Shown one piece after another: positions 2,320-14,040 of a DNA stretch of 64,000 nucleotides. Positions within the stretch are counted from its first letter, which is position 1; each line of letters opens with the position of its first letter. Source of the stretch: Spirodela intermedia (lineage: Eukaryota > Streptophyta > Magnoliopsida > Alismatales > Araceae); assembly GCA_902729315.2 (NCBI GenBank), contig LR746279.1, positions 1,130,001-1,194,000 of the forward strand, in the 5' to 3' direction. A program made the position numbers and the translations under genes. The notes beneath the pieces are model-generated. The model did not search any database and was not told where the DNA came from. It worked only from the letters and a program-made list of their open reading frames with translations.

Positions 2320-4290
2320 TCATTGGACATAAACATCGTCACCTCCTTGACATCACTTGTACCCTACTTCTTGAGATGAATGTCTCACACTATCGGTGGA
2401 CCAACGCCCTCATGATGATTAGTTACCTCTAGAATCGGTTTCCCTCTGCCCATCTAGGCAAGGTCATTCCCCTTTCAGGCCTCCTATTTATCTCACCCCT
2501 ATTTTTCTTTCTCCTCAAGTCTTTGAATGCACTACCTTAATCAAGGATCACTCTCTTTCCTTATCCAAACTAGTCTCTCGTACTCTCAAAAAGGTCTTTC
2601 TTAGCTACTCCTGAATGTAGAAGGGCTATCTAGTTTATTTTTCTAACACTTGTCGCTATGTTACGTCAGCTGACATCACCTTCCATGAGGAGTCTGCCTT
2701 CTTCTCCTCTACCTTCCCTCCTCCTTCTTGAGCTGCCACTTGTCCTCCACCTAGCTTTTTCCCCTTGATGGTCCTTGTAGATTCGTCTTCTTTGAATCCC
2801 TCTTGTCCATCCTCTCCACCATCACCTCCTCCTCCTAGCTCCCCATCTTCCACCTACCTCCTCCACTTCGAATGTAGATCCGTCGTCCCCCTCCTCCACC
2901 AAGCCGCCTATGCCTCCCACTAACGTCCCCAATGCTCCTCAAGATAATCTTCATCTTTCCATTGCCATGTGCATAGGTACATGTGCTTGCTTGTACCCTA
3001 CACCCTATCTCTCATATCATTTCCTAGATCACCTTTCCCCCTCCTTTTGTACCTTTGCCCTTTCTGTGGCCTCCGAGTTGATTCTCCACTCACATGTTGA
3101 GGCGACATAGGTACCTGAGTGAAAGGTGACCATGGACTTGGAAGTAGATGTCTTAGTATCTTGAGGGACTTCGAAACTAGTTCTTTATTCGGCGAACGTC
3201 AATATCATCACGTATAAATGGGTGTTCACACTCAAATACCATCTAGATGACACTATTATATGTCACAAGACTCATTTGGTTGTTTGTGACTTCACCTAGG
3301 CATATGGCATCGACTATACTAAGATGTTCTCCCCTATCATCTGACTCGCTTCTATCTTAGTGTTCCTTTCTCTCATCATAAATCAAGCATAGTCTCTCCA
3401 CTAGTTACATATTTTTAACACATTTCTCTATAGTGATCTCGAGGAGCAGGTCAAAGAGAATCACTAAGGTGTGTTTCTTGCAAAAGGTGATTTACAAGCT
3501 CAAGTAGAGTCCACACACTTGATTCGCCAAGTTCAATAGTCTTCTCACCACATTTGACTTCTCGTCATGCATTGTGGATCTTACTATGCTCAAATTTAGG
3601 GTGGCCTAGTTATTCTTACGATCTACGTCAGCGACATTCTTGTGACTAAGAGTGATGAGGCTAGCATTTATTCTACTAAAGCTTATTTGTAGTAGTACCT
3701 CAACATTTGTGACTTGGGGACTCTAAGATATTTTCTTGAGATTGAGTTTGCATACTAGGATAAAAAGCTCATCATGACCCAATAAAAGTATATCCTTAAC
3801 ATGTTTTAGGAGACTTGACTCCTTGGGTGCAAGTCATAGATTTCTCCTATAAAAGTTCATTTGCAGTTCTAGGACACTTCATCTTCACTCCTTGAGGATG
3901 GTAATCGGTACAAGCGATTATTGGGCAAGCTAGTGTATATCTCACCATCACTCATTCCAACATCGTGTATACAATTAGTATTCTGAGTTAATTCATGCAG
4001 GAACCACGATGAGTTCATTAGAAGGGAGCTCTACATGTTCTAACATGCATCAAGTGAGCCTCAATGAAATGACTCATCTATCAGCGACATGGTCATCTCA
4101 ATGTTGAAGCCTATTTTGATGCTGCGTATGCAGGTGACAAGGGCGAACGGAAGTCTACTATGGGTTACTACACATATGTTGCAGATAACCTCATCACATG
4201 GCGATCTCAGAAATAAAGAGTGGTGTCATGCTCTAGCATAGAGTTTGAATATTGATAGGAATCAACATCACTTTGAGGACAAGGTGAAAC
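2320..4290 (+). pseudogene. Ty1/copia pol remnant (integrase to RNase H)
   Basis: Broken frames on the plus strand follow copia pol in order. Integrase comes first: LLEMNVSHYRWT-like, then KGY and TSADITFHEES around 2610-2700. RT follows from about 3200 (KWVFTLKYHLDD, then AYGIDYTKMFSPI) with the YVSDILVT equivalent of YVDD near 3625 and LRYFLEIEF near 3725. RNase H lies near 4100-4260 (YAGDKGERKSTMGYYTYVADN). Many in-frame stops and shifts make it inactive. No LTR or primer site of its own is visible; its left side is cut by the Athila-type LTR. Confidence 0.85.
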
Positions 4291-4440
4291 TCATTATGGG
4301 GAGAATTATTAAGCCTCTATGCACTCATTTTAGAAGGAAGAAGACCTAAGTTCAACTAGGGAATAACTGAAGGTGAGATTATAGGGGACTCCTAATAGAC
4401 TAAAGGAATAATAAGAGCTTCACAAACAATGCACATGGGC
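4285..4440. repeat. Dispersed block shared with 19816-19970
   Basis: The stretch from gtgaaactcat to the segment around aggaataataagagcttcac matches 19816-19970 closely. In both places it separates a retroelement remnant from a methyltransferase pseudogene. It therefore probably travelled with the pseudogene during duplication. No coding potential is seen. Confidence 0.65.
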
Positions 4441-4518
4441 TACCTCAGAATAAAGAAGGGCATACATAAAGGAAAGGAGGAGAAAGAATGCACCTTTGGA
4501 GAAAGTGATTCATCAAGC

Positions 4519-4950
4519 ATGTACTTATTATTATCTTAGATCTAAGGCAATTGAATTTGATTTTCTTTGATCTCTCCCCTCTCTTCTTCTATCTTACCCA
4601 CTTCAGATGGGCAGATGACTGCAGCCTCCGCCCCTAGCAGAAGTGAATCAGAAGCCCCCAATTGGTGGAGATGCTTTGTAGGTCCTAATCTTCTGGTTGG
4701 CAGCCTGAATGTGAGCGGACAGAGGCTAGAACCGTCGCATAGGAGGCCATCGCCACTTCGCTGCCTCTTCCTTCTCAAGTTCCTCCAATCTTCTAGAGAT
4801 TCAGAAGCTCCCATGTACCTTAATGCTTCCCCATAGACATGAAGTTCTGAGCTTCACATCGCTCAGAACTGTAGTCTACATAAGTAGGCATTCATTTGTA
4901 CGGTTTGAACTTTTTCTCTTAACAAGAGGCAAGCAGAGTCGTTCATCATA
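4519..4950 (-). pseudogene. Methyltransferase exon 1 fragment (copy 6) with upstream DNA
   Basis: On the minus strand, from an ATG near 4759, the sequence aligns with exon 1 of the intact methyltransferase at 40947-41126. It has a MAS-AT-LAS-RSHS beginning, then a stop, a frameshift and a decayed RRLHSP region. Sequence above 4830 matches the DNA upstream of that exon (atcgctcagaac, then a ttctcttaacaagaggc motif). On the 3' side, 4519-4610 matches 23190-23270 next to copy 4, so intron-like sequence has been joined directly to exon 1. Dead copy. Confidence 0.75.
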
Positions 4951-5490
4951 ATTAGTTAATTAGAGGCCTAAAATTCAGTTTATAAAACTTATTGGGCTTG
5001 TGGGCCTATTTATGTGGGCTGACCCAATAATGGGATGACGATTGGGCTTGTCGACAGGTTCTATGGTCCAGCCCAATAATGGGATGTTTGGGGCCAGTCC
5101 GGGCCTCGGAAAAGCGGTCCACTGAGATTAAGAGTATTTCAGCTGTTCCGCTGGAACAGTTTTGGATTAACGAGGATCTGTCCGTTGACTCGCTGTTTTC
5201 TTCCCCGACGACTACCATAAATGCTACGACTTTACCAATGACTCCCGTCGCTGGCTCGCAACAAAGGAGCCATTGATCCCCGAATCGTGGATTATGGTCC
5301 CTTCTCTCTCTCGCTCTCTCTCTGTGTATATATGTGTATGCATGCCTTCATCTATGCATCTCTCTACAATTAAGCCACGAAGGGTCAAGAAAAACCAAAA
5401 AAGTGTATAGTTTATGCAGTTATCCTTCAGCCGGATCGTGGCTTTAGGCTGACCTGGGAATTCTCTCTCTCTCTCTCTCTCTCTCCCTCC
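4950..5490. repeat. Upstream part of a duplication shared with about 21975-22385
   Basis: Blocks such as gaacagttttggatta, then cgttgactcgc, then cttcatctatg, aaaaaagtgtatagttta and gtggctttagg occur in the same order at 22060-22385. Both stretches lie upstream of methyltransferase exon 1 copies, so the duplication covered at least 0.6 kb of 5' flank. It ends at a CT repeat (5462-5486). No gene is seen. Confidence 0.7.
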
Positions 5491-5499
5491 CTCCATCTA

Positions 5500-5751
5500 G
5501 CTGGCTAGCTCCGAAAGCATGCACGTTGACAACCTCTCTCTGCCGTGTTTAATGAGAGGTTCACTGTCCACGACACTGGAGCTATCATCCCGAAGATATC
5601 TTCGCCGCCCCCCACCCCGGTCCCCACCGTCGATCTTGCCGGCCGACCGCCGCACGTGCCGCTTCAGCGGCGAACATGTGAGTCGACAAGGACCACCCAT
5701 TCAATTACCCCGACTTCGTAGTCTCCTCCTCCTGAAGCCCCCCACCAGGTG

Positions 5752-5811
<60 letters not shown>

Positions 5812-5943
5812 TCAGTGTTCATCATTTATTGGTCTCAGACATATTTAAAGCTCTCTCAGCTCACTGAGGAAGGAGATGGCTCTATTCATAATGGGTAAGT
5901 TATGCACAGGGAGGTGCACCATTTTCTGTGATGAACTCCATCT

Positions 5944-6015
<72 letters not shown>
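5500..6015. repeat. GC-rich stretch plus two long CT microsatellites
   Basis: 5500-5740 is GC-rich and open in some frames on both strands, but no protein family is recognisable. Two CT tracts follow, at about 5756-5803 and 5942-6008. Open frames that run through these tracts as Ser-Leu repeats are not believable genes. The stretch lies downstream of the peptide gene at 6080-7005 and may include its 3' UTR. Confidence 0.6.
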
Positions 6016-6016
<1 letters not shown>

Positions 6017-6079
6017 CATCTGTATTCTCTGTCTGCGATCGTTTATAGACCGTTTTCGGCGGTACTCTGCTCGCAGAGA

Positions 6080-6755
6080 TCAGTTGTGAATCGGGGGTTT
6101 CCTCGTAGCCGGAGAATAGTCCATCCCTTCTATGTCCATGACGCCGGGGTCCATCTCCTCGGCCGGCGGGTCGTGCTCGGCGACGACAGGGACGGCGGCG
6201 ACCTCTTGTACCCGTTGACTTCTGGCACTCTGTGGAAGATAACGAAAATCAACGTGAGGATGAAGACGACTACAGTGCTGGAATAATCGGAACGCCAGTT
6301 TGACTTTAATTGTTCTGACTAAAAGACAAACCTTTCGTGACGCCCGGGTCAGAAGTTTTCTACTGTTTCCTGCGCGATAAGAGGGATAAAGGGAGTACTC
6401 TGAGCAAGTGAGAGAGCGAGGGAGAGAGAGAGAGGGAGAGAGAGAGAGAAATCATGTTTCGGATGATCAGAAGCAATAATATTCATGAAAGTTTTCCCAT
6501 CTACGGTTGAATTCTAACTAAAATTCTAACTCTCCTTCATCATACCTGAATGGAGAGCTGTTCTTCCCACCGGAGCTCTCCCTGCTCTCACACTCCCACT
6601 GTCATCCTGAAACCGACCGAGAATACCTTCAGCTTTCGATCCCCAGAATAGAGTAAAACAAGATGAAGGGTCCCGAAAACAAGAAACCCACCTGCTGGTT
6701 CCTCTCCAAGGCGGACGAAGGCTCTTCTTCCATCCCATTCCCTAGATAGACAGAT

Positions 6756-6810
<55 letters not shown>

Positions 6811-7005
6811 AGGGAGAGAGGGAGGGAGAGAGGGAGAGAGAGTAGACCTTCTTAGTCATCCAGAAATCCACTAATAAACGGCTGTGATGGGAGGAATAGT
6901 GAGGGTTTCCGTCATCGTACCTCTTCCCGCGGCGGTGTCTAGAGGCAGCAGCAACAGCAGCAGCAGCAGCAGCAAGAGGAGCAACGCTGAGACCCGAGCC
7001 CTCAT
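6080..7005 (-). CDS. RGF/GOLVEN/CLEL signalling-peptide precursor, five exons
   Basis: Five minus-strand exons join in phase with GT-AG introns: 6921-7005, 6692-6741, 6546-6606, 6332-6369 and 6080-6229, giving 127 residues. Residues 1-25 form a signal peptide with 13 leucines in a row, six of them encoded by a CTG run. The middle is variable and hydrophilic, with RKLL at 69-72 fitting the RxxL pattern cut by site-1 subtilases. The last 13 residues, DYSPATRKPPIHN, sit exactly before the stop: Asp-Tyr for tyrosine sulfation, a Pro-Pro pair and terminal His-Asn are the hallmarks of mature ROOT MERISTEM GROWTH FACTOR peptides. Known members are secreted, sulfated and bind LRR receptor kinases to control meristem size and gravitropism. 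An in-frame upstream start at 7089 is possible, but 7005 puts the signal peptide first. Which paralogue it is cannot be told. The exon 4 donor (GTTTGT) is the weakest site. Confidence 0.85.
6413..6451. repeat. GA microsatellite in intron 3 of the RGF-like gene
   Basis: An imperfect GA tract lies within intron 3 (6370-6545), reading as CT on the gene strand. It does not touch the splice sites. Confidence 0.85.
6757..6842. repeat. AG microsatellite in intron 1 of the RGF-like gene
   Basis: A tract of about 86 bp, nearly pure AG then interrupted by GGG, fills much of intron 1 (6742-6920). On the gene strand it is a CT-rich tract ending about 16 nt before the acceptor TATCTAG. It could act as an extended polypyrimidine tract and is likely length-variable. 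Confidence 0.85.
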
Positions 7006-7154
7006 TCTGGAGGAGTCCACCGGCGAGAGAGAGGCGACCAAGGAGAAGGAAAGAGTAGATGGCGGGAGCTCCCTCTCAATTTCTTCCACAAATAATACTC
7101 CACCAGGCGGATGTGGGGTATCGAGACAATGTTCTCAATATCCCCTCGTTTCCG

Positions 7155-7163
7155 CTATATATA
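7155..7163 (-). promoter_or_regulatory. Candidate TATA box of the RGF-like gene
   Basis: The minus strand reads TATATATAG about 150 bp upstream of the chosen ATG (7005). That predicts a transcription start near 7125-7130 and a 5' leader of about 120 nt. Further up is a G-box core CACGTG at 7438-7443, a common plant bZIP/bHLH site. Both are inferred from sequence alone. Confidence 0.5.
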
Positions 7164-7169
7164 CCATCA

Positions 7170-7624
7170 TAGAACATATTCTATCATATATCATCATCTC
7201 TCACATTTTTCACTGTTTTACTGTGCCTTCGGGGGCCTCTCCCCCTACTTCGGAAGAGCGAGTAAATGAGATTATGTACTACTATTATGTTGCACCATGC
7301 AGGAAACAGTGGCCGGACGGCGGTTGGGAGGGGTGGGGATGTTGCCGGTTGCTGGCCAGTTGGTCCCCCTGCCGGCCGTTCACATGGATGTCCATGTCTG
7401 GCCTCCGTCGGAAAGCGGCGTGTTGACTTGGGGCGTCCACGTGGTGGCCGGCTGCCCACGCGGCCTGTCTGCGCTTTCTTTGGCAATAAGACATGGTGGG
7501 TGATGACCCTGTCTAGGCTTGACGATGGTTGCTCCCTCGGCGATACCGCCGCCAACCCCTCCCCACCTTCCGGCGGCCACCATTAAATTCCATCTCAAAG
7601 AAATGTGAGATCGACGTCGGAGGA
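7170..7624. other. 5' flank of the RGF-like gene, GC-rich, no gene seen
   Basis: About 450 bp, GC-rich from 7300 to 7590. It is open in several frames on both strands, as expected from composition alone. No recognisable protein, splice pattern or repeat is present. Best read as promoter-proximal DNA, cut on its far side by a retrotransposon LTR piece at 7625. Confidence 0.4.
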
Positions 7625-7737
7625 AGCGGTAGAAAGGGACTCATTGCTTGCAAATGTAATATTACTATATATTCGTCCAAAACTTTGGTGCACAAGTAGT
7701 GTGGGACTAAACCCACATCACACCTTCTCATGAAAGA
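7625..7737 (+). mobile_element. Athila-type LTR fragment (113 bp)
   Basis: gggactcattgcttg, then tatatattcg, then gtgggactaaaccca match the TATA-containing part of the family LTR in plus sense (compare 25325-25405 and 46945-47025). The adjacent element at 7738-14209 is in minus sense, so this piece cannot be its normal 3' LTR. The boundary at 7737/7738 is a rearrangement junction. Confidence 0.8.
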
Positions 7738-9199: not shown

Positions 9200-10259
9200 T
9201 TTATGTAATGTTTAAGCCGCTGTCCATTTATCTTAATGTTATGATCACTTTTAGGATCTTTAATCATTACAGCCCTATGATCATGTCTCTTCCACCATAT
9301 AAGGTCTTATCTATTTTGATTTTAATTTTCTTGAGAATAATTTCAACCTAGAATCATATAACCACACTTTTTACCAACATCAATTTTTTTTCTACTAATG
9401 TATTTATAATGAAAAGTTTTTTTTTTGTTATATATTCTATGATTTTCATAAGCTTTATTCCTCAACTCCTCTAGTTCATGTAGCTAAAAAATTCTATGCC
9501 CATCAGCTGATTTTTCATCCATATATAAAATTTTTATAGCCCATAATACTTTATGCTTTATTTCCACAAGAAGATAACATGGCTTTTCAAAAATGAGATA
9601 AAATGGAGACATACCTATGAAATTTTTATAAGCTGTTCTATAAGCCCATAATGCATCTTGTAATTTTGTGGGCCAATCTTTCCTATTTGATCTAATTATT
9701 TTCTCAAAATTCTCTGAATTTTCTTATTCACTACTTCATCTTGCCCATTTATTTGAGGATGATATAGAGTGGCTATTTTATGGTGTACTCTATTATTTTT
9801 CAATAGTTCCCTAAAATGTTTATTTGTAAAATATGTTCCTCCATCACTAATAATCACTCTAAGACATCCAAATTTCGAAAAAATATTTTCCTGCACAAAT
9901 TTCATCACGATTTTATGATCATTAGTTTTAGTAGGAATAGCTTCCACCCACTTAAACATATAATCAACAGCAAGTAAAATATATTCATATTTTTCAACTG
10001 ATAGGAAGAGACCCATGAAATTTATTATCTATACATGAAAAATTTCGACTACTAACATGTTACTCATGGGTATTTCATCTTTTTTGCTCATGTTACCTAT
10101 AGATTGACATGAAATACATGTTCTACTAAATTCTATATAATTTTTAATGATTTTAGGCCAATAAAAACCACACTGAAATTTTTTTCCAGCTATTTTTCGT
10201 CCAAAAAAATGTCCTCCACAGTTAGATGAATGGCACATGTTCTGATATGAATGGAACAT
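9200..10259 (-). pseudogene. Athila-type integrase, broken
   Basis: The minus strand encodes an integrase core with LAVDYMFKWVEAIP, ISDGGTYFTNKHF and an HPQINGQDEVVN segment, carrying the D, D and E positions of the DDE triad. The zinc-binding region upstream (CHSSNCGGHF, CISCQS) is also visible. Compared with 61766-62300, about 0.4 kb between RNase H and the zinc region is deleted here. Several stops interrupt the C-terminal part (9200-9690). Confidence 0.85.
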
Positions 10260-12499: not shown

Positions 12500-14040
12500 A
12501 CGTTTTCCTTTTCTTCTAATGTTTGGAGATAAGGATCAAGTAAAATCTTCTCACTCAATGCATTTACTGTCTTAATATTTTCATTTCGTGGGTTTTTTCC
12601 TAAATTCATGCTACTAGACTCCCCTTACTGAAATCTTATTGTTGGGCGATTCTTTAGATTTTCTATGGGTTGACTAGGTAGTTGTCCCTCTTTTCTCTTA
12701 ATCCCAAGAGCCTCTATAATTTGTTTCTGCTGCAACATCATTTGATTCATAATTTGTTGTATCATTTGACTCATTTACTACATCATTTCCATAGCATTAG
12801 GTTAGGTTTGAGAGGACTGATTTTTTTGAAATCTGTTTTCCCATTTTGGATGAAATTCAGAGTTTGAATTGGATCTAAGTGCTTCTAGATTTTGAATATT
12901 ATTTGGGTCTTTCCACGAAAAATTATTTCTTCATTAGGATTATAAGAATTAGAAAAAGGCTTCCTATTTTTATTAAAATCATGAGCTACTTACACTTGTT
13001 CTTGCATAGGGTAAAATGATTGATCTAAATTATAGTATTGAAATTCAGAATAATCATTTTGACCATACATAGGACATGTACTATTTGAATTGAATTGAGG
13101 GTTAAGAGACTTTCTAATATTGTCAATAAGTAAATCAAGTTTTCCTAATATTTTATTAATCTAATTAACCTCATTTAGTAAATTAGAATCATTTTGATGA
13201 TATAATTTATAAATTCTTCTCTTCTTATCCTTGTCATATAATTCAAAAGAGGCTTGATCTCTAGAATTTTCACTTACATTCTCATAAAGGCTGTAAATCT
13301 CAACAAGGGTTTTCTCCATAAAAGTTCTTCCATATATCGAATCAACCATATTTCTATGTTGTTCTAATAATCCATCATAAAAAAATTTAGTGAGTTGTCA
13401 CTTGGGTATAGCATGATGAGGACACTTTCTAAGTAAAACTATGAATTTTTCCTATATCTCATACAAAGTTTCTCCTGATCTTTGAGAAAAACTCTATATA
13501 TATTTTCTCATATTTTGAGTTTTTCCTAAGAGATAAATTTTTTGAAGAAAGGCCTATTCTATATCTTTTCAGTTAGTTAATTTCTCTATCTAATGTGGAT
13601 AATCAATGACTAGATTTGTCCCCAAGTGTATGAGAAAATAATTTTATCTTAATAATTTTCAATGTAACTTGAGGGAGATTAACTAAATCACAGACCATAT
13701 AAATTTTTTTAAATGCTGATAAGATTCCTCTAAAAGCAATCCATGAAAATTAGGAAGCATTTGAAAAATTCTTAGATTTATTTCGAATTTAACAGTGGGT
13801 GTTAATGGGACTCTAATATTGGATGCTCTTTGAAATGAATCAGGGATATAATGATTTTTCATGGCCGTAGGATTATTCTCAATTTGACTTGTACTTCCTT
13901 CAAGATCTATCAAAATTAATCTTTCTTTTAGATTTTTAGTTTTGAATGAAATAATGAAAGAATTTTCTAGCCTTGGATGCAAAGATCTTCTACCATGCAT
14001 AAAAATCAATAAATTTGAGGAAAAAGTTTAATAATTACTA
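12500..14040 (-). pseudogene. Athila-type gag, broken
   Basis: Two better-preserved stretches, 13683-14009 and 13161-13349, match gag of the element at 46536-54217 (48440-48871 and 49094-49275). No CCHC knuckle can be read with confidence. Stops between the stretches show it is not functional. Confidence 0.8.

Follow-up and report, generated by a model that had tools for sequence, protein, structure and literature searches.

Does the minus strand of the region described here carry a genuine gene for a precursor of the RGF/GOLVEN/CLEL peptide hormones, or can a peptide-like motif be pieced together there by chance from a region rich in possible splice sites? The question is raised by a set of short exons near one end of a window of 64,000 nucleotides from Spirodela intermedia (contig C16, positions 1,130,001 to 1,194,000; "the window" refers to this whole stretch). 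The sequence evidence indicates that the locus is very probably a protein-coding plant gene that specifies an RGF/GOLVEN/CLEL precursor of the GLV1/GLV2 type, that is, a new gene of an already known family. Genes of this family are easily missed owing to their short exons, and the locus supplies a good gene model as well as a GLV1-type ligand from a small plant genome.

The gene model and its splice sites

The five exons first proposed for the locus (85, 50, 61, 38 and 150 nt, with four correct junction phases) were all reproduced when the gene was rebuilt by script from the minus strand read over positions 7600-5700 (Table 1). The exons extend from 7005 to 6080, every intron has GT-AG borders, and the joined frame of 384 nt specifies 127 residues and a stop; introns are normal in RGF genes, according to an excerpt of PMC8708909. 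The 13-residue peptide that had been described as Asp-Tyr...Pro-Pro-Ile-His-Asn, DYSPATRKPPIHN, is present in this frame and lies flush with the TGA stop at the C-terminus of the precursor, MDIEGMDYSPATRKPPIHN. At the N-terminus, the 13-Leu core at residues 8-20 is followed by Ala-Ala at 25-26, and signal cleavage after Ala26 is possible as judged by eye from these residue positions. We expect the precursor to be disordered.

The agreement of the junction phases had been taken in the first-pass annotation as evidence against chance, for which it is weak when used alone. With introns of 60-300 nt and exons of at least 25 nt, a total of 258,988 in-frame four-intron GT-AG models join the same ATG and TGA, and 31 of 50 first-order Markov control sequences permit at least one model of no more than five introns, two of the 50 having a four-intron model count at least as large as that of the real sequence. 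Phase agreement is therefore rejected as proof, because in-frame models are plentiful. The same counts are what might be expected to favour the chance assembly of a peptide-like motif through free choice of splice sites, an explanation that we nevertheless regard as extremely improbable, since the last exon, which has no splicing freedom, exceeds the Pfam cut-off by itself when the whole genome is searched in all six frames (PF21529, 34.7 bits, E 4.3e-6; 136.5 Mb in 32 contigs), and since the splice sites of the model rank among the best in the region. Scored with an approximate plant splice-site matrix, the donors of the model take ranks 1, 2, 4 and 5 among 45 GT dinucleotides and its acceptors ranks 2, 3, 4 and 6 among 60 AG dinucleotides; the better-scoring sites that the model leaves unused are the third-ranked donor at 6626, the top-ranked acceptor at 6314 and an acceptor at 6399. 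The T fraction is 0.35-0.40 in the introns, 0.13-0.16 in exons 2-5 and 0.26 in exon 1.

The statement that no single open frame shows the gene holds for the gene as a whole and fails for its 3' part, where exons 4 and 5 and intron 4 lie within one open frame (6451-6080, 123 aa) and where the last exon was found by the six-frame search cited above. In all three genomic copies of the gene (see below), intron 4 spans a whole number of codons and lacks in-frame stops, so that a longer precursor could be made by its retention. The gene and family would then be the same, with intron 4 normally kept (four exons and 34 additional residues in the precursor) or with both forms being made. We consider this rather unlikely in view of the high rank of the splice sites involved (second of 45 donors and second of 60 acceptors) and of the intron-like composition of the segment (GC 0.40 and T 0.37, as against 0.62 and 0.14 in exon 5), both of which favour removal of intron 4. 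The absence of indels between copies in this intron is uninformative, because exons 2-5 have none either.

Table 1. Features of the RGF-type gene and of the repeated segment that bears it (window positions, unless C16 is indicated)
Feature	Position	Strand	Description
TATA-like element TATATATA	7156..7163	-	~150 nt 5' of the ATG; in all three copies (alignment)
Exon 1	6921..7005	-	85 nt; start codon; 13-Leu core, residues 8-20; donor GT
Exon 2	6692..6741	-	50 nt; variable prodomain; 0 substitutions across three copies
Exon 3	6546..6606	-	61 nt; candidate SBT6.1-type R-x-x-L site RTAL, residues 60-63; 0 substitutions across three copies
Exon 4	6332..6369	-	38 nt; candidate SBT6.1 site RKLL, residues 69-72, of the R-(R/K)-X-L kind
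Intron 4	6230..6331	-	102 nt, a multiple of three
Exon 5	6080..6229	-	150 nt; Pfam GLV1-2 match, residues 95-127; stop
Predicted mature peptide DYSPATRKPPIHN	6083..6121	-	13 codons
AATAAA, poly(A)-signal-like hexamer	5825..5830	-	about 250 nt past the stop; in all three copies (alignment)
Segment of ~3.35 kb, copy B	C16:1029589-1032938		
Segment of ~3.35 kb, copy A	C16:1134255-1137627 (window 4255..7627)		
Segment of ~3.35 kb, copy C	C16:1235239-1238596		

Membership in the RGF/GOLVEN/CLEL family

The assignment of the gene to this family, proposed in the first-pass annotation, is borne out by several kinds of evidence: a match of the joined precursor to Pfam GLV1-2 (PF21529; E 2.1e-10, 41.8 bits, cut-off 28.1), the terminal 13-mer, the candidate subtilase sites and conservation in two further genomic copies. 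When 14 control genomes were searched with PF21529, one was matched and none scored above the cut-off. The precursor has a single C-terminal domain of 13 residues that starts with Asp-Tyr and carries Pro in its second half, as compared with the conserved RGF-domain positions in an excerpt of PMC8708909. RTAL and RKLL are the only R-x-x-L sites in the precursor, and RKLL alone has the stricter R-(R/K)-X-L form. According to excerpts of two studies, SBT6.1 prefers R-(R/K)-X-L (PMC7162652), and RXXL or RXLX, as sites of the SBT6.1 type, are present in 10 of 11 precursors from Arabidopsis (PMC4983112); the two candidate prodomain sites fit these descriptions and so support an RGF-type precursor.

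Residues 1-94 have no accepted Pfam family match, and support for this part of the precursor comes from the similarity of the recent copies and from splice-site quality. A match of the N-terminus to PilX_N (17.3 bits, cut-off 25.5) was taken as a Leu-rich artefact, and matches of the precursor to solved structures (E 0.32 or worse) are at chance level. In a protein collection that is perhaps poor in plants, none of 94 candidates reached E 10, and no relative from outside the genome itself was thus detected; a literature search combining duckweed and RGF returned no duckweed RGF study among the matches listed.

Elsewhere in the window, nine open frames were compared with Pfam and gave one match, to a fragment of a retrotransposon integrase core near the gene (9696-10028, minus strand; rve, E 1.2e-8). 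A match to a plant C/D-box snoRNA, snoR71 of Rfam, lies at 13408-13514 on the plus strand (41.4 bits, gathering score 40).

Three copies on one contig

The genome search with PF21529 detects three places, all on the minus strand of contig C16, at 1031396 (copy B), 1136083 (copy A, in the window) and 1237048 (copy C). All three candidates were scored and two of them lie above the cut-off, with copy B just below it (27.6 vs 28.1 bits). No RGF paralogs beyond this array were detected by the search, whose model covers one RGF subtype and is split at introns, so that further RGF genes are possible. A search of the genome with the 21-residue eCLEL6 peptide gave no match, not even to the three copies described here, and for this reason carries no information.

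The five exons, the GT/AG borders and the reading frame are kept in all three copies. The only coding indel is an in-frame insertion of 6 nt that adds two Leu to the putative signal peptide of copy C; other indels occur in introns 1, 2 and 3. Copy B differs from copy A by the amino-acid changes S76P, S79G and H126R and by one silent change, and copy C differs from copy A by S76P in addition to the Leu insertion. Substitutions among the copies amount to 0-5 per exon or intron, and copies so much alike make conservation a weak test of selection. Introns 1 and 3 and the downstream flank of the gene hold CT/GA microsatellites, at about 6845-6757, 6450-6405, 6010-5953 and 5805-5757 (minus strand); the lengths of the two intronic tracts and of the far downstream tract vary among the copies.

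The copies belong to a segment of ~3.35 kb that is repeated at intervals of 104,666 and 100,984 bp along C16. The spacers of ~98-101 kb between them are transposon-rich and largely homologous between the two units, with long homologous blocks that are 97.3-99.6% identical among the matches listed. In the upstream flank of the gene (7480-7006), 2 of 475 sites distinguish copies A and B, whereas copy C shows 20 differences from A and 18 from B; in the downstream flank, B and C are identical over 497 sites, and A differs from each of the two at 4 of 477. The two ends of the copies thus have different nearest relatives, and such a mosaic history fits unequal crossing-over or gene conversion, as inferred from these alignments. 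The array may also be an assembly error, although the offsets between units shift along its length, as would be seen in real copies that have undergone separate insertions and losses. A local repeat occupies C16:1122311-1124550, in which a period of ~285 bp recurs in tandem; the blocks among the matches listed suggest only about one such period at the counterpart of this repeat in the other unit (~1218131-1218415).

Copy B (C16:1031396-1031545) encodes a changed mature peptide, DYSPATRKPPIRN, which ends in PPIRN and has Arg in place of His at position 12. In the excerpt of PMC11534595 on which we draw, this position is His or Asn across 12 Arabidopsis peptides; Marchantia MpRGF1 has Ser there, according to the excerpt of PMC8708909, which suggests that the family tolerates some change at position 12. 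The changed residue and the subthreshold Pfam score of copy B, together with the location of the copies in a transposon-rich segmental array, might be indications that at least one of the three, possibly including the copy in the window, is a decaying, non-functional duplicate. We assign this a low probability, as no copy has acquired a stop, a frameshift or a splice-site loss and as the copy in the window retains the canonical peptide ending. It is also conceivable, albeit quite doubtful, that a recent segmental triplication has given rise to a small RGF array in which the Arg-12 peptide acts as a weakened ligand, an antagonist or a ligand of another receptor, and in which retention of intron 4 adds a second form of the precursor. 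Three near-identical copies, one of them with an altered mature peptide, amount to a small natural experiment in ligand evolution.

Proposed processing and comparison with known peptides

By analogy with the pathway of Arabidopsis CLEL6/GLV1, as far as it is described in the excerpts of PMC7162652 and PMC4983112, the precursor would enter the secretory pathway and lose its signal peptide in the ER, after which SBT6.1 would cut the prodomain in the Golgi. TPST would then sulfate the Tyr residue, Pro would be hydroxylated, and a subtilase would free the peptide at Asp. The peptide would presumably be recognized by RGI-type receptor kinases, as in Arabidopsis, and growth would be controlled in this way. 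RxGG and RxR are named as essential receptor motifs in the excerpt of PMC8708909. Among the best 12 loci detected with the At4g26540 ectodomain, those at C14:2685181 and C9:7950015 carry RAGGN and are 60% and 57% identical to it over the query. The R-x-GG-N pattern occurs in three more of these 12, at a similar place in L033 and L034 and elsewhere in L039. A narrow RxR pattern gave no match in the two best loci, which are for this reason receptor candidates only.

When the C-terminal 13 residues were compared with nine Arabidopsis peptides (sequences from the excerpt of PMC11534595), the best match was RGF6/GLV1/CLEL6 (AT4G16515), DYPQPHRKPPIHN, with which the peptide predicted here shares 9 of 13 mature residues, or 10 of 14 when the preceding Met is counted. 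As described in the excerpted sources, the two have in common the Asp-Tyr start, the RKPPIHN end, the Met ahead of Asp and two upstream SBT6.1-type sites. They differ at residues 3-6, in the sequences of these sites (RTAL and RKLL here, RRLR and RRAL in the Arabidopsis precursor) and at the very end, where the stop stands right behind Asn in the gene described here and the eCLEL6 peptide carries an extra Glu. RGF9/GLV2/CLEL9 (AT5G64770), DYNSANKKRPIHN, is identical at 8 of 13 residues and has KRPIHN in place of KPPIHN and a middle part that is also unlike; the Pfam family is named for both GLV1 and GLV2. The eudicot RGF domain DYAQPHRKPPIHN, which is common to six proteins in the excerpt of PMC8708909, has the same RKPPIHN half as the gene in the window and is distinguished from it at residues 3-6, with AQPH as against SPAT.
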